This document shows, one piece after another, positions 9,859-28,059 of a DNA stretch of 64,000 nucleotides (position 1 is its first letter; every line of letters begins with the position of its first letter). The notes beneath the pieces are model-generated. The model was given only the letters and a program-made list of their open reading frames with translations, made no database searches and was not told the DNA's origin. The stretch is from Clostridium saccharobutylicum DSM 13864 (lineage in GTDB: Bacteria > Bacillota > Clostridia > Clostridiales > Clostridiaceae). Where the stretch lies: NCBI RefSeq assembly GCF_000473995.1, contig NC_022571.1:296501-360500 (forward strand). Direction: 5' to 3'. The translations under genes and the position numbers were made by a program.

Positions 9859-9977
9859 TAATTTAACCTCCTATCTTGTATAATATAGATTACGATGTAT
9901 ATTATACATAATAATTTACTATTGTTCATTAGATTATAGTCTTGAATAGCACTTATTATAACATAATTTACAGAATA

Positions 9978-10635: not shown

Positions 10636-10699
10636 TAATTATCACAGTAAATATAAACACAATTGGGTTGAACAAATAATCTATACTACCTTTAAGAAA

Positions 10700-11327: not shown

Positions 11328-11515
11328 ATTTGAAATATTTAAATAGAAATCTGTGATTAAAATTTATACAAAGTTATTAAAAGTATTAATTAGTATATAA
11401 GGTGGAAAACGTATAATTAACGTAACTATTCAGCTGTAGTAATTTAATTTTTAGTAAGTATAATTTTAGATATGACAAATAGGGGAATAAAATTAACTAA
11501 TATAAAGGTAAGTAT

Positions 11516-12745: not shown

Positions 12746-12759
12746 CACCACCTATCATT

Positions 12760-13120
12760 AATTTATACAAGATGTGTTTATAATACCAAAAACTAATTAT
12801 AATAGAAAAGTTATTTAGAAATTAATGATAGTACTTATATTAAAATTACTTAATGCATCAATAATTACAATATTAATAAAAAATTCTGTTTATACCAGGT
12901 TTTGTACGTTTGGTGCAAATTCTATTCAATTAATGTCAGATTATGCTAGTATATAGTTAAATATGAGTTGAACAGTTACTTAAAAGTATTATTTTACAAT
13001 AAATGAGATAAAGGGAAATGTGATTGAAAAAATAAAAAGCTTATATTGTAAAGTATTGCGCTATTTTGCTTTGATATGTCTGTACAAAATAAATCTAGAT
13101 TTATTTTTAGAGGTTATTTA
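12760..13120. other. Gene-free stretch between transposase remnants
   Basis: AT-rich, no ORF or structure I can interpret. Confidence 0.4.
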
Positions 13121-13470
13121 AATGATAAGTTTAAGGAAAAATACAAGTGAAGATAATAAAAAGGCAATATTAGAAATAGAGACAGCAATAAAAAACTAAA
13201 AATATAAGAGTGTACAAACTATTCTATGTAGTTTTAATGTATTTTCAAGGTTTTAAAAATAAAAGAATTGCAGAGATGGAAGAATTTAAGGACATGCTGT
13301 TGACAACTGTATTAAAAAAATATAAGTCCTAAAGATTAGAGGGTTTTAGTGAAGAAAGCACTGGTGCTCCTAGAAAATTAAGTTCTGGTAAGAACAGAAA
13401 GTTATTCATGTAATAGCTAATAATACGCCCGACGAAATGGGCTTTTAAGGAAGAAAAAATCAATTATTTG
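13121..13470 (+). pseudogene. IS630-family transposase, 5' remnant
   Basis: Frame-shifted reading gives a helix-turn-helix segment (YKSVQTILCSFNVFSRF in one frame, FKNKRIAEMEEFKDMLL in another) followed by APRKLSSG-like and QKVIHVIANNTPDEMGF. This order matches the N-terminal HTH and the KLSxEQxxxVxxxxxxxxPxExGF linker of IS630-type transposases. At least four disruptions occur and the DDE domain is absent, so it is dead. Confidence 0.6.
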
Positions 13471-13675
13471 ATAATGCTAAAATCGATTATGTTAATTTGA
13501 TACAACTATTTTTAAAATATATGGAACATAGCTTACAATTAATTTTAAAAGTTTTAGTGATTTAGAGTTGTTATACAAAATTTCATTTAAACAATAAATA
13601 TCAGTATGTGGTAATTCAAGTGGATAAATTTCTGCTTTTTGATTACAAATATTTTGAGAATTGGAGGTGAAAAAG
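13471..13675 (+). promoter_or_regulatory. Upstream region of the RiPP operon
   Basis: This 200-bp AT-rich stretch between the IS630 remnant and the first precursor gene must contain the operon promoter. GGAGGTG at 13663-13669 is a strong ribosome site for precursor 1. I could not settle on a single -35/-10 pair. Confidence 0.45.
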
Positions 13676-13822
13676 ATGGAAGCGTTAAAAGACATGTATG
13701 AAAAAGACCTGTATTTTGAAGAATTAGAAAATACAGATGAATTAGATGCTGCAGGTGTAGGTGCTGCATTAGGCCTAGGATACGCTGTCGGCATAATTAT
13801 TTATGTTGGCATAGCAACATAA
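13676..13822 (+). CDS. Daptide-like RiPP precursor peptide 1
   Basis: 48 residues with GGAGGTG seven bases upstream of ATG. The acidic leader (about residues 1-24) carries LYFEELENTDELD; the core starts near DAAG and is a Gly/Ala/Val/Ile-rich hydrophobic helix (GVGAALGLGYAVGIIIYVG) ending in Ala-Thr. It has no Cys, ruling out lanthionine, thioether or disulfide chemistry. The (Y/V)FEELE motif and the C-terminal AT are shared with the next two peptides. In daptides a hydrophobic peptide ends in Thr, which is converted to a dimethylated diamine; the enzymes downstream fit this. The product is probably a membrane-active peptide exported after leader cleavage. Confidence 0.85.
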   Translation: MEALKDMYEKDLYFEELENTDELDAAGVGAALGLGYAVGIIIYVGIAT

Positions 13823-13892
13823 TGGAACTGGAATTATTGATGAAATTTACAGAAGGTAAAATGTTTTCTTAAAAGGGAAGGAGGGCTGTGAG

Positions 13893-14021
13893 ATGGAGAA
13901 AAGTGATGAATTAGTTTTTGAGGAACTAGAACTTCAAGAAGATCTTTTTTGGGAGTATGTTGCTGCAGGTTCAATAGGTGTAGCTGGTGGTATCGTTGTT
14001 TATGTTGCTATAGCAACATAA
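13893..14021 (+). CDS. Daptide-like RiPP precursor peptide 2
   Basis: 42 residues, with GGAAGGAGGG about 10 bases upstream of ATG. The leader is the shortest of the three and contains LVFEELELQEDL. The core (about residue 24 onward: VAAGSIGVAGGIVVYVAIAT) is a Gly-zipper-like hydrophobic helix that again ends Ala-Thr. It lies 70 bp downstream of precursor 1 with its own ribosome site, so the three peptides are made separately, as in multi-component daptide or two-peptide bacteriocin systems. Confidence 0.85.
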   Translation: MEKSDELVFEELELQEDLFWEYVAAGSIGVAGGIVVYVAIAT

Positions 14022-14067
14022 AATTTAAAAGAAATAAACTCGATAGTTTATGAAGGAGGTGAAAAAG

Positions 14068-14202
14068 ATGGAGGAAATAAAAGATATGTATTTTGAAGAA
14101 TTAGAAAAAGCTGAAGAATTAAGTGATCTTTCAGATTTTGCAGCAGCAGCAGCACCTTGGATTATTGGCGGAACGTCTGTTGCCGTTGCCTTAGCAACAT
14201 AA
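14068..14202 (+). CDS. Daptide-like RiPP precursor peptide 3
   Basis: 44 residues, with GGAGGTG seven bases upstream of ATG. The leader MEEIKDMYFEELEKAEEL is nearly the same as that of precursor 1. The core is the most divergent: five alanines, then PWIIGGTSVAVALAT. It contains internal Thr and Ser but no Cys. The Pro-Trp pair would kink the helix start. The C-terminal Ala-Thr is conserved, suggesting the Thr is the modified residue. Confidence 0.85.
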   Translation: MEEIKDMYFEELEKAEELSDLSDFAAAAAPWIIGGTSVAVALAT

Positions 14203-14228
14203 TAAATTAATATTTTGTTGTAATAAAT

Positions 14229-14275
14229 AATAGTCCATATGATTCTTGATTTTATATTAAGTAGTATGGACTATT
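14229..14275 (+). terminator. Hairpin between precursor genes and the biosynthetic genes
   Basis: AATAGTCCATA (14229-14239) pairs perfectly with TATGGACTATT (14265-14275), with weaker outer pairing. No T-run follows, so it is more likely an attenuator or RNA-stabilising hairpin that keeps precursor transcripts abundant while allowing read-through to the enzymes. Confidence 0.5.
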
Positions 14276-14299
14276 ACAATATTTAAAAGAGGAGTAATT

Positions 14300-15100
14300 A
14301 TGAATAGATATTATGGTATATTTAAAAAAATAAAGGATAGTTGTCCGGAGTTAATTAATGAGTATCCACTATACTATAAAGAAGCGGCAGACCTTTATGA
14401 CCAGTTATCTGTAGACAATAATGATGTTAGTTTTGTTATGCAACAAGCATTAATGTTTGGGGGACCTATTCTTGAATTATGTAGTGGAAGTGGAAGGCTG
14501 ACTTTGCCGCTTTTAAAATTAGGTTTAAAAATTACGGCTGTAGATTTATCTGATGATATGTTATCAAATTTAGAAGCTCAGTTAACTAAGAGCAAGAAAT
14601 ATGCAAGATTAAAAAAAAATCTGACAATAGTATCAGAGGACATGACTAAGCTGGAATTAAACGAAAAATTTAATCTTATTATTATTGGGGCTACAAGTAT
14701 TAGATTAGTAGAAGATGACTTTGCTGAGTTTTTTAATAAAATGTATGAATTATTAAACGAGGGCGGTTGTCTATTTTTTGATTTTGAAAACATTCCGATT
14801 AATAAAAATGAAAATGATGCTCCTGAACCGATGGCTGTAGTTGACTTACCTGATAAAGAAAAGAAATTATCTCTAGTTTGTGTTCAAAGAATCGTAAATC
14901 ATCAGGAAGAAAGAGCTTTTGTTAACTTTTTGAGGGTAATTCCAGGATCTGAAGAAAAAGTTTTGTTAAGTTATACAGAGTATAGGATATTCGGGATTGA
15001 GGATATTAAAAGCGCTGTAGAAAGAAGTAATTTTGGATCATGTGAAATGAATAATATTCCGAATTCGAATACTTACTTTTGTAAAATGGTGAAAAAATAA
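14300..15100 (+). CDS. SAM-dependent methyltransferase of the RiPP operon (daptide MpaM-type role)
   Basis: 266 residues, class I Rossmann methyltransferase. The SAM-binding motif I is PILELCSGSGRLTLPLLKLG around residues 56-75, followed by the acidic ribose-binding VDLSDDML and the EDM motif near 115. The first 55 residues form a helical cap. In daptide pathways a methyltransferase N,N-dimethylates the amine installed on the decarboxylated C-terminal Thr; that role is inferred here from context. GAGG lies seven bases before ATG. The gene begins the enzyme part of the operon, 97 bp after precursor 3 and 43 bp before the recognition protein. Confidence 0.85.
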   Translation: MNRYYGIFKKIKDSCPELINEYPLYYKEAADLYDQLSVDNNDVSFVMQQALMFGGPILELCSGSGRLTLPLLKLGLKITAVDLSDDMLSNLEAQLTKSKKYARLKKNLTIVSEDMTKLELNEKFNLIIIGATSIRLVEDDFAEFFNKMYELLNEGGCLFFDFENIPINKNENDAPEPMAVVDLPDKEKKLSLVCVQRIVNHQEERAFVNFLRVIPGSEEKVLLSYTEYRIFGIEDIKSAVERSNFGSCEMNNIPNSNTYFCKMVKK

Positions 15101-15143
15101 TTGCTTTATATGTAAAAAAAGTTATAGATAGCGGGGAAATACG

Positions 15144-17354
15144 ATGAATAAAAATATTTGTTTTATTGAATTGATAAAAGATGAAAATGGTTTTTTTAAA
15201 GCTGGACAAACTGTAGAAACAGCTTGCATTAGAGCGTACTTAAAAGAAAATGAAATTGATTCAATGATATATGTTGACGAGTCTCTTCCATCGATAAGTG
15301 ATATGTGTGATGACATATTGTCTTTATCAGATGAGATTTTAGTTTTTGTTGTACATGAAGAATGTAAGGGAATAATGAAGGTACTAATATCATGTATTAA
15401 GGAATTAGAAGACGTTGAAATTTACATATTAGGGGATACGATGGATGTTGAAGATAAAGATATTATTAATATAAATTCTGAAAAGAAATTAATTGAAGTA
15501 TTAAAGGGTGAGGTTGATAATACAAATTCTGATTTTTTTTCAGTATCTCCATATGCTAGTGGTATATTACTTACTAGAGATATTAGCAAATATGGTATTT
15601 GGATTGGAAGAAGTACCAGGGAATTAAGACAGATTGATGCTATAAAAAAAGATATTAATGAGTTAGTTAAAGCATATTCTGGATTAGCTGAATCAGAAGA
15701 TAAAGTTATTCCTTTTATTGGTCAATTTATAGAAGATAAAGAATACTTGGAGAATGTTATTGATAAATTAAAAAACGTTAATATATCTTTTTTGAAATTT
15801 CTTTTACCAGTACATGAAAGTAATTTTGATGAAGTTATTAAAATGTCTAGATCTATGCCTCAATGTAAGTATTCATTAAAATTTGAAACTGCGTTGGATG
15901 AAAATAAGGTTAATAGCCTTTTGGCTTTGATTCAGGATCAGAAAATTGAAGGAATATATTTTCCGGCATCATGGCTTAAAGAGAAAAGTAAATTTATTTC
16001 AATAATACATTCAGAATCGATTGATATTTTCCCAATTGGTGAGGTGGATAATAAAGCCTTGAGTCCTGAAACTACTTCAATAGTTTTAGAGAATACAAGA
16101 TTAAGGTATTTACCTTTCTATAGAGGTTTCCTGAACAGCAAAATTGGTATTTATGGCGGAGACAAACTAGATGGATATGTACATCATCTTGAAGTTTCAG
16201 ATGAGTTTATGAATAAAAACAATAATGATTTTATAAATGAAATCATGAGCGTAAATTCTTCTGTGTATGTAAAAGATAAGAAACTAGATATTGGAGATGA
16301 AAAGTGGTTATTTGATGAAAAGGGCATTGCTAATGTTGATAGTAAAAGTTTCAATAATGTTTCGGATTCATTTTCTAAGTCAAATGTAAACTTAAGCAAC
16401 TTTATTCAGGTTAGTGATCATAGTTTATATAATAATACATTATCATATGTAAGTGATACTAAAATATATGAAATATCATATAAAGAAGGTAAAAGGAACT
16501 TAAGCCATATTAAAGAAGAATTGAAAAATAAAGAAAAAGTAGTATATATATTTAAATTAGTTGATGAAGAAGATTTTAAATTATTGTTGGAAGATGCAGA
16601 AAAATATAAAGATTCACATAAATTAACTGATCTTACATTAGCTTATGGATATTTAGAAAATAGTTGTAGGTTCGGATTTTCCTCACAATGTTCTGTATCC
16701 AAGATACCAAGAATCAAAATTGACAGTGGAGGAAATATCCGTACATGCGATATGCAGACAGAACCAATTTCAAAAGTAAGTGACTCCTTATTTGAGATTG
16801 AACATAATTGCATGATAAAAAGAGAAAAGAAAATTCATGAAAAAGGTTGTTATGACTGTTCTATGAGTTCATGGTGCAGCAAATGTACAGAATTACCTGA
16901 ATTCATGGATGGAATGTATTGTGAAATTATGAAGAAGAAATCATATGTCTTAGATTATACAATGATTCCTTTTATATACTTTAGGTTAAAAGAAACAAAT
17001 GGAAATTATACAGACATAATTCCTGATTACGTTATTATTTCAAATGAATATATGTATAATTATATTCCATCAGAAATAAAGGGAGAAGTAGCACCATATT
17101 TGCCTAAATTCACTTCACTTTTAACAATTAACGGAAAATGTTTGATATGGTCACCAGCAACAAACAAATATTACAATGTTAGTAGTGAGCTTGCATATAT
17201 TGTTGAGTTGTTACTAAGAAGAGTAAGGGCGGAATCAATTCCAGAATTAGTTTCTAAGTTGTTAAAAATTGATATAGAAAAGAGTGAAAGAATATTTGAC
17301 TTTGCAATTAATGCATTTAAAAAGGCTGGAGTTTTATATAGGGAAGTTAAGTAA
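15144..17354 (+). CDS. SPASM-like, PqqD/RRE-containing RiPP recognition protein without a radical SAM motif
   Basis: 736 residues. The C-terminal 70 or so residues (from about 660, ending in NYVSSEL-like YYNVSSELAYIVELLLRR and KKAGVLYREVK) look like a PqqD-type RiPP recognition element that binds leader peptides. Before it, residues about 505-595 hold a Cys-rich SPASM-like segment: Cys near 508 and 515, GNIRTCDM near 532-538, CYDC near 568, WCSKC near 578 and YC near 592. No CxxxCxxC radical SAM triad exists anywhere, and the first 450 residues match nothing I know, though a degenerate barrel is possible. In daptide clusters a separate recognition protein brings the precursor to the enzymes; this is the likely counterpart, enlarged. 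GGGG lies nine bases before ATG. Confidence 0.7.
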   Translation: MNKNICFIELIKDENGFFKAGQTVETACIRAYLKENEIDSMIYVDESLPSISDMCDDILSLSDEILVFVVHEECKGIMKVLISCIKELEDVEIYILGDTMDVEDKDIININSEKKLIEVLKGEVDNTNSDFFSVSPYASGILLTRDISKYGIWIGRSTRELRQIDAIKKDINELVKAYSGLAESEDKVIPFIGQFIEDKEYLENVIDKLKNVNISFLKFLLPVHESNFDEVIKMSRSMPQCKYSLKFETALDENKVNSLLALIQDQKIEGIYFPASWLKEKSKFISIIHSESIDIFPIGEVDNKALSPETTSIVLENTRLRYLPFYRGFLNSKIGIYGGDKLDGYVHHLEVSDEFMNKNNNDFINEIMSVNSSVYVKDKKLDIGDEKWLFDEKGIANVDSKSFNNVSDSFSKSNVNLSNFIQVSDHSLYNNTLSYVSDTKIYEISYKEGKRNLSHIKEELKNKEKVVYIFKLVDEEDFKLLLEDAEKYKDSHKLTDLTLAYGYLENSCRFGFSSQCSVSKIPRIKIDSGGNIRTCDMQTEPISKVSDSLFEIEHNCMIKREKKIHEKGCYDCSMSSWCSKCTELPEFMDGMYCEIMKKKSYVLDYTMIPFIYFRLKETNGNYTDIIPDYVIISNEYMYNYIPSEIKGEVAPYLPKFTSLLTINGKCLIWSPATNKYYNVSSELAYIVELLLRRVRAESIPELVSKLLKIDIEKSERIFDFAINAFKKAGVLYREVK

Positions 17355-17370
17355 AAAAGGAGATATAAAT

Positions 17371-18639
17371 ATGAGCATAAACCCGGTGGTAAGAGTTAGT
17401 CAAAAGTTTGATGAAGGTAATGATATTGGATTGATAACCTCAGGTGAGGATAAATATATTTATGATTCAGATGGAAAAAAGTATCTTGATTTTTGCGGTG
17501 GAATCTGGAATATGCCTTTTGGATATACGAATCTAGCTATAAATGAAAAGATTATTAAACAGTTAAATAAGCTGCCATTTTGTAATCTTGTTACCAATAT
17601 AGCGGATATTCAACATAATTATGCAGTAAGACTTTGTAAAATAATAGGAACAGGGGCGGTATTATATACATGCTCTGGTTCAGAGTCTATTGAAGCAGCT
17701 ATTAAGACATGTCGTAAGTATCAGGCTATAAAAAAGAGTAGTAGAAAAGGAATATCAGCTTTCCCATTGTCCTATCATGGAACTACTTATGGAGCTATGA
17801 GTGTCAGTGGAATTGATCAGGTATTATTAGAAGATTACTTTCCATTATTAGATAATATTATGTGGATTGATTTACCTAAAGATTTACAAGATGAAGATAT
17901 TTGGATTGAGGTAGTTGAAAATCATTTTAAGAAAAATGCTGAAAATATGGCTGGTATTATAATTGAACCTATTTTCGGATCAGGTGGAATAGTTCCAATT
18001 CCTGAAAAAGTCTTTAAGAGAATTCAAGAGTTATGTTCATCAAATGACATTTTATTAGTTGTTGATGAGGTTACAACAGGCTTTGGAAGAACAGGAATAC
18101 CATTCGCATTTCAAAGATATGGAATTAAACCAGATTTAATTTGTCTTTCTAAAGGAATTAGTAATGGATATCTTCCCCTTGGAGCATTAGCTTTTTCAAA
18201 CAGAGTTGTAGAAACATTTATTGAAAAGGATGCTACATTGGAACATTTTTCAACGCAAGGTGGAAATTTAATCTCCATAGCAGCTGCAGATGCGGTTCTT
18301 GATTTAATGGAACATTATGAAGACTATGAAGTAGCTGCTAAAGGTGAATACATGGTAAATTATTTAAAACAGTTACTTGGGTCTTATAAAAGTATATCAG
18401 TAAGAGGAACGGGATTAATGATTGGTATTTCATTTCCTAAAGATTTGGATGCAGAACGTCTTCTTGATGTTTGGGCAAAAATCAGAAAGAGAGGATTATT
18501 AGTATATATTTTCTCTAATCCAGGTTACAATCTTGGATTAAGTCTTTTTCCTCCATTCACAAGTACTAAGGATGATTTGAAAAAAGCAGCAGATAAGATA
18601 GTATCACTATTAAAGCGTTATCCAGATATTGTTTATTAA
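17371..18639 (+). CDS. Class III PLP-dependent aminotransferase of the RiPP operon (daptide MpaD-type role)
   Basis: 422 residues, started at the ATG of MSINPVVRV, which has AAGGAG eight bases upstream; the frame is open further back into the previous gene without a ribosome site. Fold-type I class III motifs are complete: SGSESIEAAIKTCRKYQ for phosphate binding, DEVTTGFGRTG near 225 with the pyridine-binding Asp, and the Schiff-base Lys in LSKGISNGYLPLGA near residue 259. Daptide aminotransferases convert the ketone left by oxidation and decarboxylation of the C-terminal Thr into an amine. The alternative, an ornithine- or GABA-type free-substrate enzyme, is less likely inside this operon. 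Confidence 0.87.
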   Translation: MSINPVVRVSQKFDEGNDIGLITSGEDKYIYDSDGKKYLDFCGGIWNMPFGYTNLAINEKIIKQLNKLPFCNLVTNIADIQHNYAVRLCKIIGTGAVLYTCSGSESIEAAIKTCRKYQAIKKSSRKGISAFPLSYHGTTYGAMSVSGIDQVLLEDYFPLLDNIMWIDLPKDLQDEDIWIEVVENHFKKNAENMAGIIIEPIFGSGGIVPIPEKVFKRIQELCSSNDILLVVDEVTTGFGRTGIPFAFQRYGIKPDLICLSKGISNGYLPLGALAFSNRVVETFIEKDATLEHFSTQGGNLISIAAADAVLDLMEHYEDYEVAAKGEYMVNYLKQLLGSYKSISVRGTGLMIGISFPKDLDAERLLDVWAKIRKRGLLVYIFSNPGYNLGLSLFPPFTSTKDDLKKAADKIVSLLKRYPDIVY

Positions 18640-18672
18640 AGGTATATATAATTATGTTATGGAGGTGATGTT

Positions 18673-19863
18673 ATGCAGATAAAGCATTTACAAATTGAGC
18701 AGGAAAATGAGAAATCACCAATAGGACAAATATATCTCATTAGAAATACTGTGAATAATAGATATGTACGTCTTGGAAAAAATGAAACATATTATTTATT
18801 ATCTGTTTTGGGTGAAAGTGGTTTTGCAGTAGAGCTAAATTTAAGTGATGTCAAAGAAATGCCCGAAGAATTTAAAACTAAAATAAGAGCTAAATTTGAA
18901 GAGTGGGGCTTTTTAAATGACAAAATAAAAGACGTTAAACGGGCTCCCGTTGAAAGCATTAGAAAGATTCATATTGTTAAATTTAACATAGAAAAAGTAC
19001 TTAAAGTTATATATCCAATATATTCCACGTTTTTCTCTAAGGGAGGGTTTGCAGTCTGGATTTCAGCTTTGTTGGGGGTAGTAGGATATTACATATATGC
19101 TATATCAACTTTTGATCCTTCATCAAGTGTTGATGTACCAATATTACACTTCACTGTTGGAAACATAATTTTAATAGCGCTGACAATATTTGCAAGTATT
19201 ATTTTGCATGAATTTGCACATGCTGTTACCTGTATCAAGTATGGAGGAAAGGTAACTAATATGGGAATAGTGTTATATTATTGTATACCTTGTTTTTACT
19301 GTGATGTTTCAGGAGTTTATAGTATTAAGGATAGGAAAAAAAGAGCTATTGTAGGAGCGGCAGGTATATTAACAAATTTATTTATTGGCAATATTATGTT
19401 GCTTATTGCAATTATTTTGTCTAACTTTAATATTGTTTCAATCTTACTATATTATATAGCCATAGGTATTATTTTTATCAGTATATATAATTTAATTCCA
19501 TTTGTTAAATTAGATGGATACTGGATTTTATCAGCTTTATGCAAAGTAGATAATCTAATGGATAAATCAGTAATATTAGCATATACCACATTCTTTTCAA
19601 GAAAGAATTTAAATAAGATTAATATGAAGGTGGGTAAAAGAAGAATACTTTCATTATACGGAATTATTGTATTGTTTTTTAATGAAGTGTTCTGGATTTA
19701 TACATTTTACAATATAAAGAACATGTTTCATTTAAATGGTTATTTAGCAAAAGGCATTTTTGTAACTGCTGCTATTGTAATTTTAGCGGATTTCGTTAAG
19801 ACAATACATTATTATTATATGGTTATTAAAAATGATTATAGAAGAATTCTAATGATGATGTAA
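18673..19863 (+). CDS. M50-family intramembrane zinc metalloprotease (YydH/MpaP-like)
   Basis: 396 residues. The N-terminal 90 residues form a soluble PqqD-like or winged-helix domain (VNNRYVRLGKNETYYLLSVL). The membrane part has the zinc site HEFAH near residues 178-182 within ILHEFAHAVTC, and the second site PFVKLDGYWIL near 275-285, the M50 (x)DG motif. Six or so hydrophobic segments surround them. Such proteases are standard in YydF epipeptide and daptide loci, where they remove the leader peptide, often coupled to export. GGAGGTGATG gives a strong start. It is followed 20 bp later by the ABC ATPase. Confidence 0.88.
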   Translation: MQIKHLQIEQENEKSPIGQIYLIRNTVNNRYVRLGKNETYYLLSVLGESGFAVELNLSDVKEMPEEFKTKIRAKFEEWGFLNDKIKDVKRAPVESIRKIHIVKFNIEKVLKVIYPIYSTFFSKGGFAVWISALLGVVGYYIYAISTFDPSSSVDVPILHFTVGNIILIALTIFASIILHEFAHAVTCIKYGGKVTNMGIVLYYCIPCFYCDVSGVYSIKDRKKRAIVGAAGILTNLFIGNIMLLIAIILSNFNIVSILLYYIAIGIIFISIYNLIPFVKLDGYWILSALCKVDNLMDKSVILAYTTFFSRKNLNKINMKVGKRRILSLYGIIVLFFNEVFWIYTFYNIKNMFHLNGYLAKGIFVTAAIVILADFVKTIHYYYMVIKNDYRRILMMM

Positions 19864-19883
19864 TAATATAGGGGGATAAGCGT

Positions 19884-20765
19884 TTGAATAAAGTAGAGGT
19901 AAATGGATTAGTAAAATATTATGGAGATTTTTGTGCGGTTAATGATGTGAATTTCTCCTTTTCAAGTGGAAAATTAACAGCGATATGCGGAAGAAATGGT
20001 TCAGGAAAAACAACATCAATCCGCTGCCTATTAGGATTGCTTAAGGAAGATAAAGGTGAGTTTTTAGTTAATGGGTTAAAACAGAAACTTGATTTTAAGA
20101 AAATTGGGTATCTGCCTGAAGAAAGAGGATTGTTTGTTAAAGAAAGAATAGACTTTCAACTTGAACTGCTTGCAAGATTAAAAGGAATGAACAAAAAAGA
20201 TGCAAGAGAATCTATAGACAATTGGATGAATAAATTTGATATAGCACAATATAAAACAAAAAAACTAGAAAATTTGTCAAAAGGAAATCAGCAGAAAGTT
20301 CAGATGATTGCAGCACTAGTGCATAACCCTGACATTATAATATTAGATGAGCCGTTTAGTGGTTTAGATCCAATAAATATGCAGTTTTTCATTGATTTAA
20401 TAAAGAAATTGAAGAAAAATGGAAAATGTATATTAGTTTCAAGTCATCAACTAGCATTGATAGAAGGAATTTGTGAAGATATATGCATAATTAATAAAGG
20501 AAAATGTGTTTATTCAGGTTCTATTATAGATTTGCAGAATAAATATAGTTCTGATTATTTATATTTTTCTACAAAATCAGATCTGAAAGGACTGGATGTT
20601 CAAGAATATGGTCCATTAAGTTATAGAATAAAATTAAATAGTCCAGATGAATTTAAGAAAAAGCTGAATGAAATAATGAATAGTTCTATTGAGGTAGAAA
20701 CCATTGGACGCAAAAAGTTAAATCTTCAGGAAATTTTTGTTGAGTTGGTTGGAGATAAGAATTAA
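19884..20765 (+). CDS. ABC transporter ATP-binding protein of the RiPP exporter
   Basis: 293 residues from a TTG start, with GGGGG 10 bases upstream. Walker A is GRNGSGKTT near residues 36-44, the signature LSKGNQQKVQ near 133, Walker B plus catalytic Glu IIILDEPFSGLDP near 150, and the H-loop SSHQ near 190. The C-terminal third is the extension seen in NatA/CcmA-like drug and peptide exporters. With the next gene, which begins 19 bp after its stop, it should form the exporter and possibly self-immunity pump (YydI-like position). Confidence 0.92.
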   Translation: MNKVEVNGLVKYYGDFCAVNDVNFSFSSGKLTAICGRNGSGKTTSIRCLLGLLKEDKGEFLVNGLKQKLDFKKIGYLPEERGLFVKERIDFQLELLARLKGMNKKDARESIDNWMNKFDIAQYKTKKLENLSKGNQQKVQMIAALVHNPDIIILDEPFSGLDPINMQFFIDLIKKLKKNGKCILVSSHQLALIEGICEDICIINKGKCVYSGSIIDLQNKYSSDYLYFSTKSDLKGLDVQEYGPLSYRIKLNSPDEFKKKLNEIMNSSIEVETIGRKKLNLQEIFVELVGDKN

Positions 20766-20784
20766 AGGGGAGGGAGCACATAAT

Positions 20785-22026
20785 ATGAAAGAGTTTAGTA
20801 CTGTATTTATATTTTATTTACGTAAGCATTTACGTAGCAAAGGATTTATGATTATAACATTATTAATGTGCGCAGCAGCCGTAATAATGCTACTGATTAC
20901 GAACGGCTTTTTAAATGAATCTAAAAAAGAGAAACTTTATATAGTAAATCATACTAAAGAGCTTAGGGACATCTGGGATAGTGATGTTTATCAGAATGAT
21001 TCTATGGGAGATATACAATTAGATTTTTCTATGTTAAATAATGAAGATTCAGATAGTGACTTAGTTAAAAAAGCAAAGGATGAAAAGATTTCAATTGCAG
21101 TATTTGAAGAAGAGAATGGACAAGTTACTATGAATGTAATAGATAGAGGTAAGATTAATTATACCGATATAAGCCTTCTTCAAAATATTACAAAGCAGAT
21201 TCTTCAGACAAAGAATTCTATAGAATCTGGAATATCACCAGAAGTTTTAAAAGAGATTAATACAACAATTAATATAAAGAATACTAATACATCCCTTAAT
21301 GAAGGCAGTGTCGCAGTACCATTTATATTATTTTTAGTTATGATTCTATTTATCATATTGTATTCAAATTCAGCTGTTAATGAAATTGCTTATTTAAAGA
21401 CAAATAGAGTTATGGAGATATTCTCAACTTCAATTAGACCACTTCCATTATATCTTGGAGTCAATATATCAGCAGCTTTAATTCCAGTTATTCAACTTAG
21501 CATCACTGGAGTATGTATTTGGATTATGAATAATTTTGTTAATCTTAATTTTGATAAGATTAGCAGTTCAATTGGAATAAAATTAAACAGTATTGATTTT
21601 TCAACATTATTGTTATACATGGTATTTCTTTTATTGGGTTATTTTGTATATTCGTTTATTTCTACATCTCTTGTTTCCATTGTCAGCAGGATAGAGGATA
21701 TTAACAGTATATCAGTTCCTATTGCAATGATTGGATTAATTCAATATTTTATTGGAATAATTGCATTACAGCAGGATTCTTTAATTTTAAAAATATTTTC
21801 ATACATTCCATTAACATCACCTTCAGTTATGTTTTTAAGATATGCATGTGGATATGCTGGGACTGGTGAAGTCGCAGTTTCAATCTGTATATTAGTTGTA
21901 GTTGAGTGTATGATTGCCTTTTTAGGAGCACATTTATTTACAAGAGGAATATCCTATTATGGCAATCTAAAAGAATTTTTATCAGTAACATCGCAAGTAA
22001 AAAAGAGAAATAAAAATATTGCGTAG
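20785..22026 (+). CDS. ABC-2-type permease of the RiPP exporter
   Basis: 413 residues, started at the ATG of MKEFSTVFIFYLRKHL, behind GGGAGGG; an earlier in-frame start overlaps the ATPase gene and is unlikely. It has one N-terminal membrane helix (residues 20-42), a large external domain to about 175, and five further helices to the end: the NatB/ABC-2 layout. It partners the ATPase just upstream. The external domain may hold the peptide during release. In YydF-type operons the equivalent (YydJ) contributes to export and self-protection. Confidence 0.87.
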   Translation: MKEFSTVFIFYLRKHLRSKGFMIITLLMCAAAVIMLLITNGFLNESKKEKLYIVNHTKELRDIWDSDVYQNDSMGDIQLDFSMLNNEDSDSDLVKKAKDEKISIAVFEEENGQVTMNVIDRGKINYTDISLLQNITKQILQTKNSIESGISPEVLKEINTTINIKNTNTSLNEGSVAVPFILFLVMILFIILYSNSAVNEIAYLKTNRVMEIFSTSIRPLPLYLGVNISAALIPVIQLSITGVCIWIMNNFVNLNFDKISSSIGIKLNSIDFSTLLLYMVFLLLGYFVYSFISTSLVSIVSRIEDINSISVPIAMIGLIQYFIGIIALQQDSLILKIFSYIPLTSPSVMFLRYACGYAGTGEVAVSICILVVVECMIAFLGAHLFTRGISYYGNLKEFLSVTSQVKKRNKNIA

Positions 22027-22035
22027 GAGAATATT

Positions 22036-22797
22036 ATGGAGATTAATTTTGAAGGAAAAAATATATTGGTAAGCGGAGCAGCTGGACATCTTGGAGAACA
22101 GTTAGTTAAAGATTACTGCCAATCAGGTGCAGCAACTTTACTATTAATAGATTCACCTGAACATGAAAAAGATCTTAAAAAGATTGAGAAGGAATATGAA
22201 GGCAGGACAAGGGTTAAGACATATATTGCAGACTTTAGAAACATAGAAGAAATTATTAAGGTAGTTAACCAAATTGCTGATGAAGGAATAGTGGTAGATG
22301 TACTTATTAATAATGCTGGAATAAATATAATGAAAAAAGCTAATGAAATGGATGAAGAAATATGGGATTGCGTTGTAGACGTAAATCTCAAAGGAAGCTT
22401 TTTCCTAACTAAGGAGATTGGATATAAATCCTTAATAAGTCAAAAGGGAAATGTTGTATTTATTTCTTCCCAGCATGGAGTAGTAGGAAATGTCATGCGT
22501 ACAGCATATTGTTCGAGCAAGACAGGTATCTTAGGACTTGTCAGAGCATTGACAGCTGAATGGTCAGTATATGGAGTCAGAGTTAATGCTGTTTCTCCTA
22601 CATATATACTAAATGAAGATAATGAAAGTTTTCTTATGAGTGCTAGGGAAAGGAGAAATATGTTAAATAAAATACCATTACATAAGTATGCAGAAACAGA
22701 GGATGTATCCAATGCTATTATGTTCTTAAGCAGCGACAAAGCTTCAATGATAACAGGGCATAATTTAGTTGTCGATGGCGGATATACTTCTTTGTAA
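22036..22797 (+). CDS. Short-chain dehydrogenase/reductase of the RiPP operon, candidate Thr oxidase
   Basis: 253 residues, classical SDR length. The cofactor loop is GAAGHLGE (replacing the usual TGxxxGxG) near residue 15, then NNAGINI near 92, the catalytic Ser in VVFISSQHG near 140, and YCSSK with Tyr and Lys near 158-162. The C-terminal PTYI and GHNLVVDGGY match SDRs. In daptide loci an alcohol dehydrogenase oxidises the C-terminal Thr to a beta-keto acid, which loses CO2. No iron-type dehydrogenase is present here, and this SDR sits in the operon 10 bp after the permease, so it is the best candidate for that step. Substrate is inferred. Confidence 0.85.
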   Translation: MEINFEGKNILVSGAAGHLGEQLVKDYCQSGAATLLLIDSPEHEKDLKKIEKEYEGRTRVKTYIADFRNIEEIIKVVNQIADEGIVVDVLINNAGINIMKKANEMDEEIWDCVVDVNLKGSFFLTKEIGYKSLISQKGNVVFISSQHGVVGNVMRTAYCSSKTGILGLVRALTAEWSVYGVRVNAVSPTYILNEDNESFLMSARERRNMLNKIPLHKYAETEDVSNAIMFLSSDKASMITGHNLVVDGGYTSL

Positions 22798-22823
22798 TTA
22801 GAGAAGAATGGAAGGCGAAAAAG

Positions 22824-24128
22824 ATGAAGAGCATAGTTTTTATTGTTAGATCAAGTTGTGATAATCAAGAACAGGCAGAATCGAGTTACATGCCACCTTT
22901 AGGAGTTTTATCAATTGCAAATACACTTAGGATGCACGGATATCATGTTCATGTTTTAGATTTTAGTGCACGTGATTATGAAACTAGTGAAATTTATGAA
23001 TTAATTGAAAGAGTAAATCCGATTTACATTGCATTTTCGGTATATACAGAAAATGTCGACAATGTTTTTATTATGTGTAAGGCTTTTAAGAAGAAGTTTA
23101 AAAATATTCCTATAGTGTTGGGAGGGCCTCATCCAACATTAGATACAGAGTATTGTAAAAGAAAAAGATTTGTAGATTTTATATTGATAGGTGATGGTGA
23201 ACACAATGCATTAGAACTTGCAGAGGCAATCAGAACAAATGAGAGGTTAATCCATTTTAGAGATATACAGGGATTGGTGTATGTGGATGAAGAGATAAAA
23301 TATAGTAATGGACGGTCAAGAAAATTTATTACTAATATAGATTTGATTCCTATTATAAACAGAGATTATATACCAAAGTATTTTACAGCTACTATACCTA
23401 ATATGTATTCAAGCAGGGGATGTCCCGGCAGATGTATTTATTGTGCAGCTCCTGAAATGTCTGGAGGAAAGTACCGTGTTAGAGAAATTGAAAATGTTTT
23501 TCTTGAAACATTGTATGTAGAGGACGTGTGTAAAGGTTATGAACAGATTTTCTACTGTGATGATACATTTACAGTATTTAATAAACGCCTTGAAAAATTT
23601 GTTGAATTATGTGATAAGTCTGCAATTAAATTCCGCTGGAGATGTGAGTCAAGAGTAGATGCTATGTTTAAAAATAGCTATTTGTTAAAAGGTCTTAAAG
23701 AAGCAGGATGCAAGAGAATTCAATTTGGAATAGAAAGTGGAAATCAGGAAGTCTTAAATAATATAGGAAAGAGCATGATTCTTTCACAGGCTTATGAGAT
23801 TATAGATAAGACAGTGAATACAGGAATTGATGTAGCGGCCAGTTTTATTTTTGGACATTACTGCGACACGGTTGAAACAATGGAAGATACTATCGGAATG
23901 ATGGAAAACCTTAGAGAATTGTATGGTAACAAGGTTGGGGTAGCATATGGTTTAAATACGCCTTTCCCTGGAACATATCAATATGAACATATGGAAGAGC
24001 TGGGAATAGAAATGACTGCAAAGAAATTTTCTGAATTAGATATGTTAAGTCCTGTTATCCAAACTAAGAATTTTAATATAGATGACTTAAAGCGTTTCAA
24101 TAGCCGTGCACTGAAACTATATAATTAG
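22824..24128 (+). CDS. B12-binding-domain radical SAM enzyme
   Basis: 434 residues. The first 165 form a cobalamin-binding-type Rossmann domain (PPLGVLSIANTLRMHGYHV, VLGGPHPTL, LIGDGEHNALE). The radical SAM core follows, with its cluster triad in SRGCPGRCIYCAAP near residues 197-210 and GIESGNQEVL near 305. Radical SAM enzymes of this class often perform C-methylation or rearrangements on unactivated carbons. In this operon it could methylate the peptide core or a sugar. It is the first gene of the second half, 26 bp after the SDR, and has no counterpart in the described daptide clusters I know. Confidence 0.88.
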   Translation: MKSIVFIVRSSCDNQEQAESSYMPPLGVLSIANTLRMHGYHVHVLDFSARDYETSEIYELIERVNPIYIAFSVYTENVDNVFIMCKAFKKKFKNIPIVLGGPHPTLDTEYCKRKRFVDFILIGDGEHNALELAEAIRTNERLIHFRDIQGLVYVDEEIKYSNGRSRKFITNIDLIPIINRDYIPKYFTATIPNMYSSRGCPGRCIYCAAPEMSGGKYRVREIENVFLETLYVEDVCKGYEQIFYCDDTFTVFNKRLEKFVELCDKSAIKFRWRCESRVDAMFKNSYLLKGLKEAGCKRIQFGIESGNQEVLNNIGKSMILSQAYEIIDKTVNTGIDVAASFIFGHYCDTVETMEDTIGMMENLRELYGNKVGVAYGLNTPFPGTYQYEHMEELGIEMTAKKFSELDMLSPVIQTKNFNIDDLKRFNSRALKLYN

Positions 24129-24139
24129 GAGGGCATAAG

Positions 24140-24553
24140 ATGGATTATATATTAATAATTTGTAAAAGTGGGGTAATGTATTCAGGACAGTTATTACAAG
24201 AATATAGTGATGATTTAAAGTGGGTTGCCATTAAACCAAGTACAAAATCTAATATTTGTTTATACTTTGCTGCAGATAGAATTAAAAAAATATATTTTCA
24301 GGATGGAACATCAGAAACTAAAATTGAAACTGATTTAAAAGAAATTCCAGAATTAGATTTAGAGATTCCAGAAGAAAATATTTCATTAATACGTGTAAAA
24401 GGAGGAATTTCGTACCGCGGTGAGAGAATTAGTAAAGAAGATATTTCAACAGAAATTCATTATACAGAAGGTTATTGGATTTCACCAAGCAGTATTAAAG
24501 AAACAATTATTTATATTCCAGAATATGAGGTAGAGGAGGTGTATTCAATATGA
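24140..24553 (+). CDS. Two-repeat small beta-barrel-like protein, unknown function
   Basis: 137 residues, soluble, no signal peptide. The two halves look like a tandem duplication: LIICKSGVMYSGQLL near residue 4 and LIRVKGGISYRGERI near 82, each followed by a W..I or YWISPSSIKE segment and a hydrophobic strand ending IKKIYFQDG or VEEVYSI. Predicted beta-rich, of SH3- or Sm-barrel character. No family was recognised. The next gene's ATG overlaps its stop codon (ATGA), so it is translationally coupled to the glycosyltransferase and may act with it. AGGAGGG precedes its start. Confidence 0.7.
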   Translation: MDYILIICKSGVMYSGQLLQEYSDDLKWVAIKPSTKSNICLYFAADRIKKIYFQDGTSETKIETDLKEIPELDLEIPEENISLIRVKGGISYRGERISKEDISTEIHYTEGYWISPSSIKETIIYIPEYEVEEVYSI

Positions 24554-25785
24554 AGATTGTTTTCTTTACATTTCCATATGCAGGACATGCAGCTCCCAAT
24601 ATACCTTTGTTTCAAGAGTTATTAAAAAGGAAAGTTAAACTTATTATATTTGGAAGTGAAATATATCTTAAAAAATATTTGATTGGTGATAATGTAGTAT
24701 TTGAGCCTTATCCCCAATATATTACAGATGCCTGTAAAATCAATACAGACTTAAGCTTAACTCCAGAGGAAGCAGCAGTTGCATATTACTCTTACTATTA
24801 TGATGAAGATAGATCAAGAAGAAGAGAGTATTTAATGGCTGACATAGCCAATCATTTTTACATTGATTACTATGAAAAGTTAAAAGAATTTAACCCAGAT
24901 TCAATTATGTATGATTATAATGCTTTCTTTACGAAAAAGATAATGTCAAAGCTGAAGGTAAAATGCATGGAATTAAACAGTAATACATGCGAACCTGAGA
25001 GTTTAATAAAAAGTAAAAGCTGGAAAAGTTTTATATCAAATATTGTAGCTAATCAGGTAAAGGAGTCATCATCTTTAGATGAAATAATAACAATGAATAG
25101 GAAGATGCACAGGCTTTACAAGAAAATACTCTATCAATATGAAATAGATGATATAGAAAAAAACTATTTTGCTTATCACTGCCCTGAACTTCAGAATGAG
25201 GTAGAACTTGTTAATCCAAGTAATATTTATCTTGGTTTTAATTTGCCAAAAGTTCCTAACTGTGAAAAGGATGGAAGCATATATGTTTCAAGAGGAACAA
25301 TGAGTGATACTTTTGGTGTACAAACATTATTAAAAACATTGAAGAGCCTTGGAAATATAGATGCTAAGATTATAGCAAGCCTTGGAAATAACAAGGCTGC
25401 ACAAGCAATAATTAATGAAGAGGTATGTCCTGATAATGTAAAAGTTAATCTTTACACTGACCAGCTTAAATGTTTAGGGAATGCTTCTATATTTGTTACA
25501 CATGGTGGGATTACAGGTGTTAGGGAATCACTAATGAATATGACACCTATGGTTGTGATCCCTGTTAATTTCAATGATTATCAGGTTGGAAAAGCATTAG
25601 AAAAGGTACATGCAGGCATTTTAATAGAAAAATATCCACTAGATAAAAATGAGATTGAAGAAAAAGTTAATTATATGATGGCGCATGTTAATGAATATAG
25701 AGATGGTGTAAATTATATCGCTGAAAAGCTAAGATTGCGCTGGGATGAGTTTGGAGTTAATTATTTATTAAAGGAAATTTACTAG
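24550..25785 (+). CDS. GT1-family (macrolide-type) glycosyltransferase
   Basis: 411 residues with a GT-B fold. The N-terminal acceptor domain starts MKIVFFTFPYAGHAAPNIPL with the conserved His after PYAG. The C-terminal nucleotide-sugar domain has YVSRGTMSD near 250, VNLYTDQLKCL near 300 and FVTHGGITGVRESLMNMTPM near 320, the HGG-x(5)-E donor-binding motif of MGT/UGT enzymes. It should transfer a sugar from an NDP-sugar to a small molecule or, here, perhaps the modified peptide. Its ATG overlaps the previous stop. The next gene carries a sugar-nucleotidyltransferase domain that could supply the donor. Confidence 0.88.
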   Translation: MKIVFFTFPYAGHAAPNIPLFQELLKRKVKLIIFGSEIYLKKYLIGDNVVFEPYPQYITDACKINTDLSLTPEEAAVAYYSYYYDEDRSRRREYLMADIANHFYIDYYEKLKEFNPDSIMYDYNAFFTKKIMSKLKVKCMELNSNTCEPESLIKSKSWKSFISNIVANQVKESSSLDEIITMNRKMHRLYKKILYQYEIDDIEKNYFAYHCPELQNEVELVNPSNIYLGFNLPKVPNCEKDGSIYVSRGTMSDTFGVQTLLKTLKSLGNIDAKIIASLGNNKAAQAIINEEVCPDNVKVNLYTDQLKCLGNASIFVTHGGITGVRESLMNMTPMVVIPVNFNDYQVGKALEKVHAGILIEKYPLDKNEIEEKVNYMMAHVNEYRDGVNYIAEKLRLRWDEFGVNYLLKEIY

Positions 25786-25820
25786 ATTTTATACAAAGAT
25801 ATTGGATAGGAAGTGATAAC

Positions 25821-27776
25821 ATGATTGCAATTATATTAGCAGCAGGAAAAGGAAGTCGGCTTGCATCGTTTTATTCTTGCAGTAGCAAATGCATGCTACC
25901 TTTTCAAGGAAAACCTTTGCTTGAGAGGACGTTATATCGTCTTTCTCACTGCAATGAGTTGGAAAAAATTTACATTGTTATTCGTACGCAAGAAGAAGAA
26001 ATACCAGCATATTTTGGTTCGAATTATTGTAGCATTCCAATTGAATATTGCGTACAGAATTCAGAATATCCAGGGATAATAAACGCTGTTTATTCTGTAA
26101 AAGATTTAACAAAATATACAAATGAGGATATTATTATTAACTTGGGTGATGAATATTTCGAAGAGTTAGATTTTAACAGTGTAATAAAAGAACATAAAGT
26201 GAAAAAATCATTAGTTACTCCTGTTGTTGTATATTCTGACGATACGGAAGAAATAAAAAGTAACTATACGGTTAATATTACTGAAACAGGTGAAATTATT
26301 GACGCAATTGAGAAACCTTTAAGTATATTTAATAACTATGTTGGCACTGGAATATTAATTGTTTGTGGAAAATTGTTGCAGGATTTCGCTTTGAAATGTA
26401 ATTATAAATTTGAAGAGAAACAATTAGTAGATTGGATGAAATTTGCAATGCATACCAATGGTCATTGCTATGTTTACAAATCTGGAACAAGGTTTTGTAA
26501 TTTGAATAATCAGAAGAATATGGAATATTTATATACACTTTCATATAAAGAAACATCGAAAACCATCGAGGATATGTTTTCAAAAGTGGTAGAATCGTAT
26601 CCCGATAGGATAGCTGTACGTTATGAAGGTCAATCAATCACCTTTAAAGAATTAGATGAAAAGTCTAATTCTTTTGCGAGTAATATACTTCAAGAAGATT
26701 TTAAGCATGGTGATTGTGTTGCTCTTATGTTCACACGTTCAATTGAACAAATCATAGCTTTTATTGGTGTATTAAAGGCTGGTGGGTATTATTTAATGTT
26801 GGATGAAAATTTTTCGAAGAAAACAATTGAATATATGGTTGAAAAAGCTAATATAAAACTATTAATAAGCAATAATGGACTAGCCATAAAAATAGGGCTG
26901 AGAAATAGAATAATTGATTTTGCAGCGTTAGTAAAAAGGCAAGAAAAACTGGTTGAGTTGCCAGAACATTTTTGTGATAAAGTATTTATTTTATGTACTT
27001 CTGGTTATGAAGGCCTAAGAAAAGGTGCTATAATCAATAAAAATTCAGTTGTGAATTTAGTAATATCTATGAAAGAATCAGTGTTTGATGCTTGTAAGAA
27101 AGAACATTTAGATGTAGGGGTTTGTGCTTCAGTCTCTGTTAATTCTTCTATACAACAGATATATACATCTTTGCTATATGGACATACATTGCATATTATC
27201 CCTACAACAGTCAAGTCACGACCAGAACACTTGATTTTTTATTTGAACCAAGTTGATGTTTGTGATATAACCCCTTCAATGATTTCGCTTATTACAAAAC
27301 ATATTAGAATTCATCCAGAAACTGCAATTTACACCAGACATTTAATATCAAGTGGGGAGGAATTGAAAAAAGCAACTATACATAGCTTTTTTCAGCAATG
27401 TACATCAACTACTGTTACAAATGTGTATGGTTTGGCAGAATGTACGGTTCAAAGTATGATGTTTCATATTAATGAAGGAATCGAACAAGGGTTGAAAAGA
27501 ATTCCAATTGGAAAACCGATAAGAAATACGAGAGTATATTTATTAGATTCAGATAAGAGAATAATTAGTCCAGGGAAAATAGGCGATATATGGATAGCTG
27601 GTGATGGTATCAGTTTAGGATATTTACAAGATGTAGAATTAACTAATAGTAGATTCGATACAGATATTATTAATAGAAATAAAAAGATGTATAAAACAGG
27701 AGATGTAGGTTATTTGGATTTAGATGGAAATATGTATTATTATGGTCGTGTAGACACCAAAATGAAGTTTAAATGA
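25821..27776 (+). CDS. Fusion of nucleotidyltransferase and adenylation (AMP-binding) domain, C-terminally truncated
   Basis: 651 residues. Residues 1-230 form a nucleotidyltransferase domain (MIAIILAAGKGSRLASFYSC, with the G-x-G-x-R motif and a Lys in SKCMLPFQGKPLLER). Residues from about 255 are an adenylate-forming domain with motifs CTSGYEGLRKGAI (the A3 phosphate loop, altered from TSGTTGxPKG), NVYGLAECTV (A5), GKPIRNTRVYLLD and YKTGDVGYLDLDGNMYYYGRVD (A7). The protein stops right at A8 (TKMKFK then TGA), so the small C-terminal subdomain with the catalytic Lys is missing. Such a fusion is unusual; it may be an evolutionary relic or use another protein's C-terminal part. Last gene of the operon. 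Confidence 0.75.
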   Translation: MIAIILAAGKGSRLASFYSCSSKCMLPFQGKPLLERTLYRLSHCNELEKIYIVIRTQEEEIPAYFGSNYCSIPIEYCVQNSEYPGIINAVYSVKDLTKYTNEDIIINLGDEYFEELDFNSVIKEHKVKKSLVTPVVVYSDDTEEIKSNYTVNITETGEIIDAIEKPLSIFNNYVGTGILIVCGKLLQDFALKCNYKFEEKQLVDWMKFAMHTNGHCYVYKSGTRFCNLNNQKNMEYLYTLSYKETSKTIEDMFSKVVESYPDRIAVRYEGQSITFKELDEKSNSFASNILQEDFKHGDCVALMFTRSIEQIIAFIGVLKAGGYYLMLDENFSKKTIEYMVEKANIKLLISNNGLAIKIGLRNRIIDFAALVKRQEKLVELPEHFCDKVFILCTSGYEGLRKGAIINKNSVVNLVISMKESVFDACKKEHLDVGVCASVSVNSSIQQIYTSLLYGHTLHIIPTTVKSRPEHLIFYLNQVDVCDITPSMISLITKHIRIHPETAIYTRHLISSGEELKKATIHSFFQQCTSTTVTNVYGLAECTVQSMMFHINEGIEQGLKRIPIGKPIRNTRVYLLDSDKRIISPGKIGDIWIAGDGISLGYLQDVELTNSRFDTDIINRNKKMYKTGDVGYLDLDGNMYYYGRVDTKMKFK

Positions 27777-27885: not shown

Positions 27886-28059
27886 ATGAATAATTCACCT
27901 AAACATCAAAATGATAATTCAAAAATTGGAGCTTCTATTGGCATGCTTTTAGGTGTATGTTTTGGAACTATATTTAATAATGTCGGGATATATATGCTAA
28001 TAGGTTTTACATTAGGACTATTTTATGATGAGCATCAAGAGAAGAAGAGAAAAAAATAA
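27886..28059 (+). CDS. Small glycine-zipper membrane protein after the RiPP operon
   Basis: 57 residues, with GAGGAGG nine bases upstream of ATG. It starts MNNSPKHQNDNSKIGASIGM and has two hydrophobic helices (about residues 14-30 and 33-47) with Gly every four residues (IGASIGMLLGVCFG), then a very basic tail (EKKRKK). It resembles 9679-9858 in size and pattern. It lies 110 bp after the operon and could provide self-protection against the peptides or be unrelated; no family evidence was seen. Confidence 0.65.
   Translation: MNNSPKHQNDNSKIGASIGMLLGVCFGTIFNNVGIYMLIGFTLGLFYDEHQEKKRKK

Follow-up and report, generated by a model that had tools for sequence, protein, structure and literature searches.

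Organization of the operon and its precursor peptides

We describe here a predicted peptide-modification operon of Clostridium saccharobutylicum DSM 13864 and, in particular, its 736-residue protein, the predicted DapB. The window, that is, the whole stretch of DNA that was analysed, comprises 64,000 nucleotides (NCBI RefSeq assembly GCF_000473995.1, contig NC_022571.1, positions 296,501 to 360,500). It contains 14 consecutive open reading frames (ORFs) on the + strand at 13676-27776, spanning ~14 kb with intergenic gaps of -4 to 97 bases. The gene list, coordinates, single strand and short gaps or overlaps reported in the initial annotation were confirmed in the sequence. The genes, along with two regions of DapB, are listed below (aa, amino acids; SAM, S-adenosylmethionine; RRE, recognition element of ribosomally synthesized and post-translationally modified peptides (RiPPs); PLP, pyridoxal phosphate; SDR, short-chain dehydrogenase/reductase; GT1, glycosyltransferase family 1).

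13676..13822, + strand: dapA1, precursor type 1, 48 aa, ends VGIAT; ORF with a GGAGG site
13893..14021, + strand: dapA2, precursor type 2, 42 aa, ends VAIAT; ORF with a GGAGG site
14068..14202, + strand: dapA3, precursor type 3, 44 aa, ends VALAT, P-W/F in the core; ORF with a GGAGG site
14300..15100, + strand: dapM, predicted amine N-methyltransferase; NF041820 daptide_MTase
15144..17354, + strand: dapB, 736 aa, predicted pseudo-cobalamin-radical-SAM/SPASM/RRE scaffold
16665..16922, + strand: SPASM-type cysteine block of dapB, residues 508-593; conserved Cys, TIGR04085 in relatives
17088..17351, + strand: RRE (PqqD-like) domain of dapB, residues 649-736
17371..18639, + strand: dapD, class III aminotransferase; NF041821 daptide_amino, PLP-lysine motif SKGISNG
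18673..19863, + strand: dapP, M50 intramembrane protease, predicted leader peptidase; NF041824, HEFAH and LDGY motifs
19884..20765, + strand: dapT1, ABC exporter ATPase, TTG start; PF00005, Walker A GRNGSGKT
20785..22026, + strand: dapT2, ABC-2 permease; PF12698, E 1.8e-30
22036..22797, + strand: dapC, SDR, predicted oxidative decarboxylase of the C-terminal Thr; PF13561, E 6.4e-47, YCSSK and SGAAGHLG motifs
22824..24128, + strand: cobalamin-binding (B12) radical SAM enzyme; PF02310 and PF04055, CPGRCIYC at residue 200
24140..24553, + strand: 137-aa protein without Pfam or NCBIfam match
24550..25785, + strand: GT1-type glycosyltransferase; TIGR01426 MGT, E 5.7e-19, PF06722 and PF00201
25821..27776, + strand: nucleotidyltransferase fused to a shortened adenylation core; AA-adenyl-dom 239.8 bits, residues 274-650, and nucleotidyltransferase matches

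The gene order is kept at two other loci, L006 (Clostridia metagenome-assembled genome SKW22) and L007 ([Clostridium] polysaccharolyticum DSM 1801), where the genes from the methyltransferase to the GT1 enzyme share 37-76% identity with those of the window. Because this order recurs in both, the operon is more than a chance arrangement. Scans for promoters (102 sites, compared to 112.8 in shuffled sequences) and terminators (4 sites, compared to 4.4) revealed no excess.

All three window precursors are small and hydrophobic, with a C-terminal Thr and a common leader motif, FEELE. A look-up of Thr-ended ORFs only revealed three such ORFs before the methyltransferase gene in L007 and two in L006, the contig of which starts just upstream of its two precursors. 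Best-score pairing identified orthologous partners for 3/3 window precursors in L007 and 2/3 in L006. The dapA1 precursor pairs with L007_a (alignment score 113; any other ≤69), that of dapA2 with L006_a (score 104) and L007_b (90), and that of dapA3 with L006_b (score 128) and L007_c (111). At the level of sequence, this pairing shows three orthologous precursor types, not copies, in the window, L006 and L007. By contrast, the precursors of L034 and L039, two further loci with DapB relatives, include repeats that are identical or nearly so. All five sequences of types 1 and 2 have a Tyr near the C-terminus, which the three type 3 sequences lack. The conservation of a trio of unlike precursors suggests a multi-peptide product.

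Class of the core enzymes

The methyltransferase, aminotransferase and protease each find their best match in an NCBIfam daptide model. DapM matches NF041820 with 143.7 bits (E 6.6e-42; the next family reaches 37.7 bits), DapD matches NF041821 with 303.2 bits, the best of 69 families, and DapP matches NF041824 with 194.4 bits. The reading frames of the core genes are intact from end to end, and the motifs searched for in the SDR, aminotransferase, M50 protease and ABC ATPase are all present. DapC belongs to PF13561, the oxidoreductase family published for Bacillota daptides (PMC10036551). The possibility that the SDR is an extra tailoring enzyme was rejected, as it occupies the Bacillota DapC slot.

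In an aminotransferase tree of 13 rows, which has two long paralogue branches and leaves 5 of its 10 inner branches open, the window, L006 and L007 enzymes group together (support 100/100). The nine daptide aminotransferases lie apart from four class III paralogues of the window's own genome (support 99/96), and these four other enzymes were thus rejected as the nearest relatives of DapD.

Two sets of values qualify this picture. The NF041820, NF041821 and NF041824 scores are all under the curated cut-offs of 175, 450 and 300 bits, respectively, and the identity of DapD is no higher to Streptomyces MpaD (28.8% and 26.4%) than it is to the paralogues of its own genome (26.4-30.4%). A distance of the same kind between the two phyla is noted in the main text of Ren et al. 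2023 (PMC10036551). The daptide-like operon of the initial annotation is supported by its best-matching models, Thr ends and FEELE leader, and falls short at the cut-offs. Its expectation that the enzymes would group with daptide and not with free amino-acid enzymes fared similarly: the aminotransferase groups with daptide aminotransferases in the tree but is pairwise no closer to MpaD than its paralogues are, while the methyltransferase has NF041820 as best match, plus pairwise values, at a score under the cut-off, its grouping coming from the family match and not from a tree. A search of the phylum sample with NF041824 gave matches in 135 of 398 genomes, mostly weak and one above the cut-off; four loci from other genomes were read after this search, three of which (L035, L036 and L037) showed no match to the window DapB, methyltransferase, aminotransferase or SDR and were set aside.

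The view of daptides as a Microbacterium matter, taken in the initial annotation, was not borne out, as the main text of Ren et al. 2023 reports 180 Bacillota daptide clusters (PMC10036551). Their oxidoreductase is of PF13561, as opposed to PF00465 in Actinomycetota, and their protease is shorter; daptide subgroups encode radical SAM, glycosyltransferase and nucleotidyltransferase genes (PMC10036551). Because Bacillota clusters and subgroups with such extra genes are already described there, the window operon is a variant of a published daptide type, and its extra genes by themselves are not new. Judged by sequence, a Bacillota-type daptide cluster is its most likely identity.

Predicted fold and cysteines of DapB

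DapB relatives are rare, being present in 4 of 206 genomes of the family (search A1, E ≤ 1e-3) and in 2 of 398 phylum-sample and 3 of 391 class-sample genomes (search A4, E ≤ 1e-6); these counts include the window's own genome, and the two samples overlap. A tblastn search of plasmids with Bacillota DapB found none, and the term daptide was not found in the accessible portion of a report on 57 C. saccharobutylicum genomes (PMC11063209).

The AlphaFold model of DapB residues 1-342 matches the cobalamin radical SAM enzymes CysS, OxsB, TsrM and AprD4, and that of residues 649-736 matches the RRE. From these models, DapB is predicted to have a cobalamin-binding plus radical SAM barrel fold. A SAM-cluster cysteine motif characterizes radical SAM enzymes. 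This motif, CxxxCxxC, is present in 0 of 26 DapB sequences, the window's included, and its absence led us to reject DapB as a working radical SAM enzyme. Eight other cysteines (508, 516, 535, 569, 572, 578, 581 and 593) are all found in 25 of these 26 sequences, the remaining one being a fragment. The SPASM motif contains seven cysteines, CX9-15GX4C-gap-CX2CX5CX3C-gap-C, as laid out in the accessible text of PMC6231123. The DapB spacing, C516-X13-G-X4-C535, C569-X2-C572-X5-C578-X2-C581 and C593, provides the seven motif cysteines plus C508, with the last spacing one residue short and the Gly present in 17/26 sequences. The SPASM model TIGR04085 matches 5 of the 18 DapB members from search A4 at E ≤ 0.1 (best 0.0017), the window DapB not being among them, and an AlphaFold prediction of the SPASM-RRE half, built from three sequences, had a pLDDT (predicted local distance difference test) of 50.8. 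The DapB profile gave 0 matches to Protein Data Bank sequences, Pfam on the 20 DapB members from search A1 identified PqqD in one member and otherwise weak, unrelated families, and the profile of the cassette's radical SAM enzyme showed no similarity to DapB. The RRE/SPASM label that the 736-aa protein had received at the outset was well chosen.

DapB is hence likely a retired cobalamin-radical-SAM/SPASM protein reused as a leader-binding scaffold, and it may still bind two auxiliary iron-sulfur (Fe-S) clusters as structural parts. A radical SAM origin of DapB was not found in the literature searched, which covered term look-ups in both daptide papers and several of their sections; in one review naming both daptide and SPASM, the sections consulted do not connect them.

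A profile of the 26 DapBs was compared to two annotated Streptomyces MpaBs (L041 and L042, 346 and 360 aa, respectively). The alignment, which covers 201 columns (DapB 472-704, MpaB 115-319; the SPASM-RRE region), has a score of 49.9 and a probability of 80.8%, compared to scores of 14.4 for reversed MpaB, ≤17.7 for 40 column-shuffled versions, 16.3 for an aminotransferase profile and 14.5 for a methyltransferase profile. The L041 MpaB contains zero Cys and the L042 protein one, residue 304 in the RRE part, and the CX2CX5CX2C stretch of DapB is absent from both in the alignment. A distant similarity was already implied, because PSI-BLAST with MpaB, in which an RRE is fused to a domain of unknown function (DUF-RRE), reached the Bacillota clusters (main text, PMC10036551). 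At the sequence level, the comparison speaks for common descent of DapB and MpaB and for a SPASM-like character of the unknown part of MpaB. We also entertain a wider scenario, for which we see a chance slightly short of even, in which DapB, an accessory protein present in every daptide cluster surveyed, descends from a cobalamin radical-SAM/SPASM peptide maturase. Bacillota DapBs would have shed the SAM cluster and kept two Fe-S clusters as a scaffold shared by the SDR and, in this cassette, the B12 radical SAM enzyme, and MpaB would be a remnant without the barrel and the SPASM cysteines. If this were true, a dead radical enzyme would have become the docking platform of a different chemistry, and the common origin of DapB in both phyla would revise the DUF-RRE view taken in the daptide papers and explain the unknown part of MpaB. 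Bacillota DapBs would then be predicted to be Fe-S proteins, to be handled anaerobically. The two clusters that PMC12338566 reconstitutes (T. fusca and S. azureus) come from actinobacteria.

Nine DapB loci are available with context (window, L006, L007, L034, L038, L039, L040, L048 and L049). Seven of them show an SDR match, the exceptions being L038, a contig of 5.7 kb, and L049. Five have a match to the window B12 radical SAM enzyme on the same strand (window, L006, L007, L040 and L049), and L048 has a 20% identical match on the opposite strand. YcaO and ThiF genes are added in L034 and L040; the latter locus, from the same family, combines daptide-type genes at 4902-16997 with YcaO, a B12 radical SAM enzyme, a separate PqqD protein and ThiF. 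At L049 (10849-14877) a DapB-like gene adjoins a 41% identical B12 radical SAM gene, in the company of two LanM-type synthetases and a C39 exporter.

The predicted Fe-S clusters of DapB could have another role: they might do redox chemistry or serve the B12 radical SAM enzyme in trans, the two proteins forming a split radical-SAM/SPASM pair. Consistent with such a division, the cassette enzyme has an intact CPGRCIYC, which fits CxxxCxxC, and no RRE or SPASM block was found in it, while the adjoining genes of L049 lie in a stretch with no match to the window SDR, aminotransferase or methyltransferase. The retention of all eight cysteines is also more than a relic would need. However, the eight cysteines are retained at the Bacillota daptide loci L034 and L039, whose fetched stretches contain no match to the window radical SAM enzyme, and the two annotated Streptomyces MpaBs are devoid of the SPASM cysteines. 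We consider this explanation unlikely and favor DapB as a scaffold.

The downstream cassette

Four genes follow dapC. The B12 radical SAM gene is 72% identical in L006 and 67% in L007 and, together with the SDR gene, leads the modifying enzymes in conservation. The 137-aa protein belongs to a family of which 13 members were found, its own sequence included, and none has a precomputed Pfam domain. The last gene has 44% identity to its L006 counterpart. In L007 it is disrupted, with a 110-aa fragment and, behind it, an independent ORF that encodes a carrier-protein domain.

A complete adenylation domain contains the A3 motif (P-loop) and a C-terminal subdomain with the A10 lysine. The adenylation core of the last gene stops at motif A8, and the C-terminal subdomain is absent. 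The search for relatives was confined to E ≤ 1e-60 and to comparable length, so that fusions of greater length or distance, some of which might have a complete adenylation domain, lay beyond it; it gave 11 sequences including the window's own. Ten of these, with the window protein among them, are 593-651 aa in length and end near the same point without the C-terminal subdomain; of the eleventh, P0031 (383 aa), just the final adenylation piece is left. The canonical A3 motif is found in one of the 11 (P0023) and is absent in the window's. The majority-residue share over the 11 rows is 0.72 for the nucleotidyltransferase, 0.51 for the main adenylation part and 0.64 for its final piece. A working adenylation domain in the last gene was rejected, and because both A3 and the C-terminal subdomain are absent, the adenylation part is probably not working. 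We read the gene, on these features, as probably an eroded nonribosomal module in which the nucleotidyltransferase part has remained necessary. The nucleotidyltransferase-adenylation fusion of the initial annotation is thus present, but with an incomplete adenylation half. The four genes to which tailoring was ascribed are likewise in place and may act in this way, probably with the exception of the adenylation part of the fourth. DapB and such fusions co-occur in 7/20 cases (longest contig), an indirect observation that was not used as proof.

In L038, positions 345-1967 encode a nucleotidyltransferase domain fused to a daptide-type methyltransferase (540 aa), a second link between nucleotidyltransferase activity and the daptide pathway.

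The shortened adenylation half of all ten 593-651-aa sequences, the lack of canonical A3 in 10/11 and the broken L007 gene would fit a daptide-derived cluster that has decayed or been diverted, in which the terminal chemistry goes no further than the ketone or primary amine and the other genes undergo drift. Against such decay, the core genes are full-length, the catalytic motifs of the SDR, aminotransferase, M50 protease and ABC ATPase are in place, and the methyltransferase-to-GT1 block is conserved at 37-76% across three lineages. We regard it as quite improbable.

Proposed pathway

We consider it probable that the operon is a Bacillota-type daptide cluster in which the C-terminal Thr of three distinct peptides would be converted to a dimethylated amine, with leader recognition likely by a retired cobalamin-radical-SAM/SPASM DapB. 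The terminal chemistry of the window operon would follow by analogy with actinobacterial daptides, for which this order of steps was established experimentally (main texts of PMC10036551 and PMC12338566). The DapB RRE would bind the FEELE leader and present the C-terminal Thr to the SDR DapC. DapC would oxidise the Thr beta-hydroxyl with NAD+, and the beta-keto acid would lose CO2, leaving an aminoacetone end that DapD would transaminate, after which DapM would dimethylate the amine. DapP would cut the leader and DapT1T2 would export the product. The B12 radical SAM enzyme may borrow the leader binding of DapB, and the GT1 enzyme and nucleotidyltransferase may attach a sugar, for which the C-terminal-proximal Tyr of precursor types 1 and 2 is a possible site.

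Amino-sugar pathways commonly employ class III aminotransferases and SDRs, and the operon also has a GT1 enzyme and a nucleotidyltransferase. The substrate of the aminotransferase, methyltransferase and SDR might therefore be a free sugar or amino acid destined for the glycosyltransferase rather than the peptide C-terminus. This is very improbable given that daptide models are the best matches for the aminotransferase, methyltransferase and M50 protease, and that the stretches L034, L039 and L048 combine all three enzymes (aminotransferase, methyltransferase and SDR) with DapB and with precursors ending in Thr (a single candidate in L048), a match to the window GT1 enzyme not being found there.

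Flanking features of the window

Two copies of an IS3-type element are located upstream of the operon, within 5749-13600. The region between these copies and the operon (9560-13600) is gene-poor, its sole ORF of at least 90 aa being a minus-strand frame at 13492-13794 that overlaps the first precursor. Small membrane-protein-like ORFs that are alike by eye flank the operon at 27886-28059 (+ strand, 57 aa) and 9679-9858 (- strand, 59 aa); the former starts 109 bases after the last operon gene and has no Pfam match. Between an OrfB/TnpB-type gene (55469-56581) and an aldehyde-alcohol dehydrogenase gene (56754-59369, named by eye) there is a RAGATH-18 RNA (Rfam RF03064, 73.6 bits) at 56634-56705 (+ strand), 52 bases downstream of the former and 48 bases upstream of the latter. 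This RNA could be a guide-type RNA of the OrfB/TnpB-type element or belong with the dehydrogenase gene. A glmS ribozyme at 3327-3527 (+ strand) upstream of glmS (3663-5489) is ordinary.

Comparison with known systems

The host, C. saccharobutylicum DSM 13864, is a solvent producer and industrial strain for which a marker-less deletion system has been published (PMC6158908), making the product and the role of DapB testable.

The window operon has Thr-ended precursors, a class III aminotransferase, a methyltransferase, an RRE protein, an intramembrane protease and an ABC exporter in common with the studied daptide systems (MpaA-BCDMP of Microbacterium paraoxydans, TfDap and SaDap). It differs from these in the PF13561 SDR that takes the place of the PF00465 dehydrogenase and in the extra four-gene cassette. 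Compared to actinobacterial daptides, its 736-aa DapB has a predicted pseudo-radical-SAM part and a Cys-bearing SPASM region, a comparison made with the two annotated Streptomyces proteins and not with the studied MpaB or TfDapB. The Bacillota daptide clusters of Ren et al. 2023, which include the hominicin type, have the SDR-type oxidoreductase in common with the window and, in the main text, subgroups with radical SAM, glycosyltransferase and nucleotidyltransferase genes. DapB is described there as a DUF-RRE fusion, and the terms SPASM, iron-sulfur and Fe-S are absent from that main text (PMC10036551).

DapB also resembles the SPASM radical SAM RiPP maturases CteB, SuiB and AlbA in its RRE, predicted barrel and SPASM-type cysteine block, but it has no SAM-cluster motif, its RRE is C-terminal and its N-terminal fold is cobalamin-binding-like. 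The TIGR04150 pseudo-rSAM protein of NCBIfam is a radical SAM relative by name; the L049 DapB matches it very weakly (E 0.07) and the window DapB does not. It differs in its cluster type, GG-type peptide clusters. With CysS, OxsB, TsrM and AprD4, DapB shares the fold of residues 1-342, whereas the SAM-cluster cysteine motif is theirs and not its own. For specialists the point of interest is therefore a DapB with a predicted cobalamin radical SAM fold, SPASM-type cysteines and a leader-binding domain, but without the radical cluster motif.

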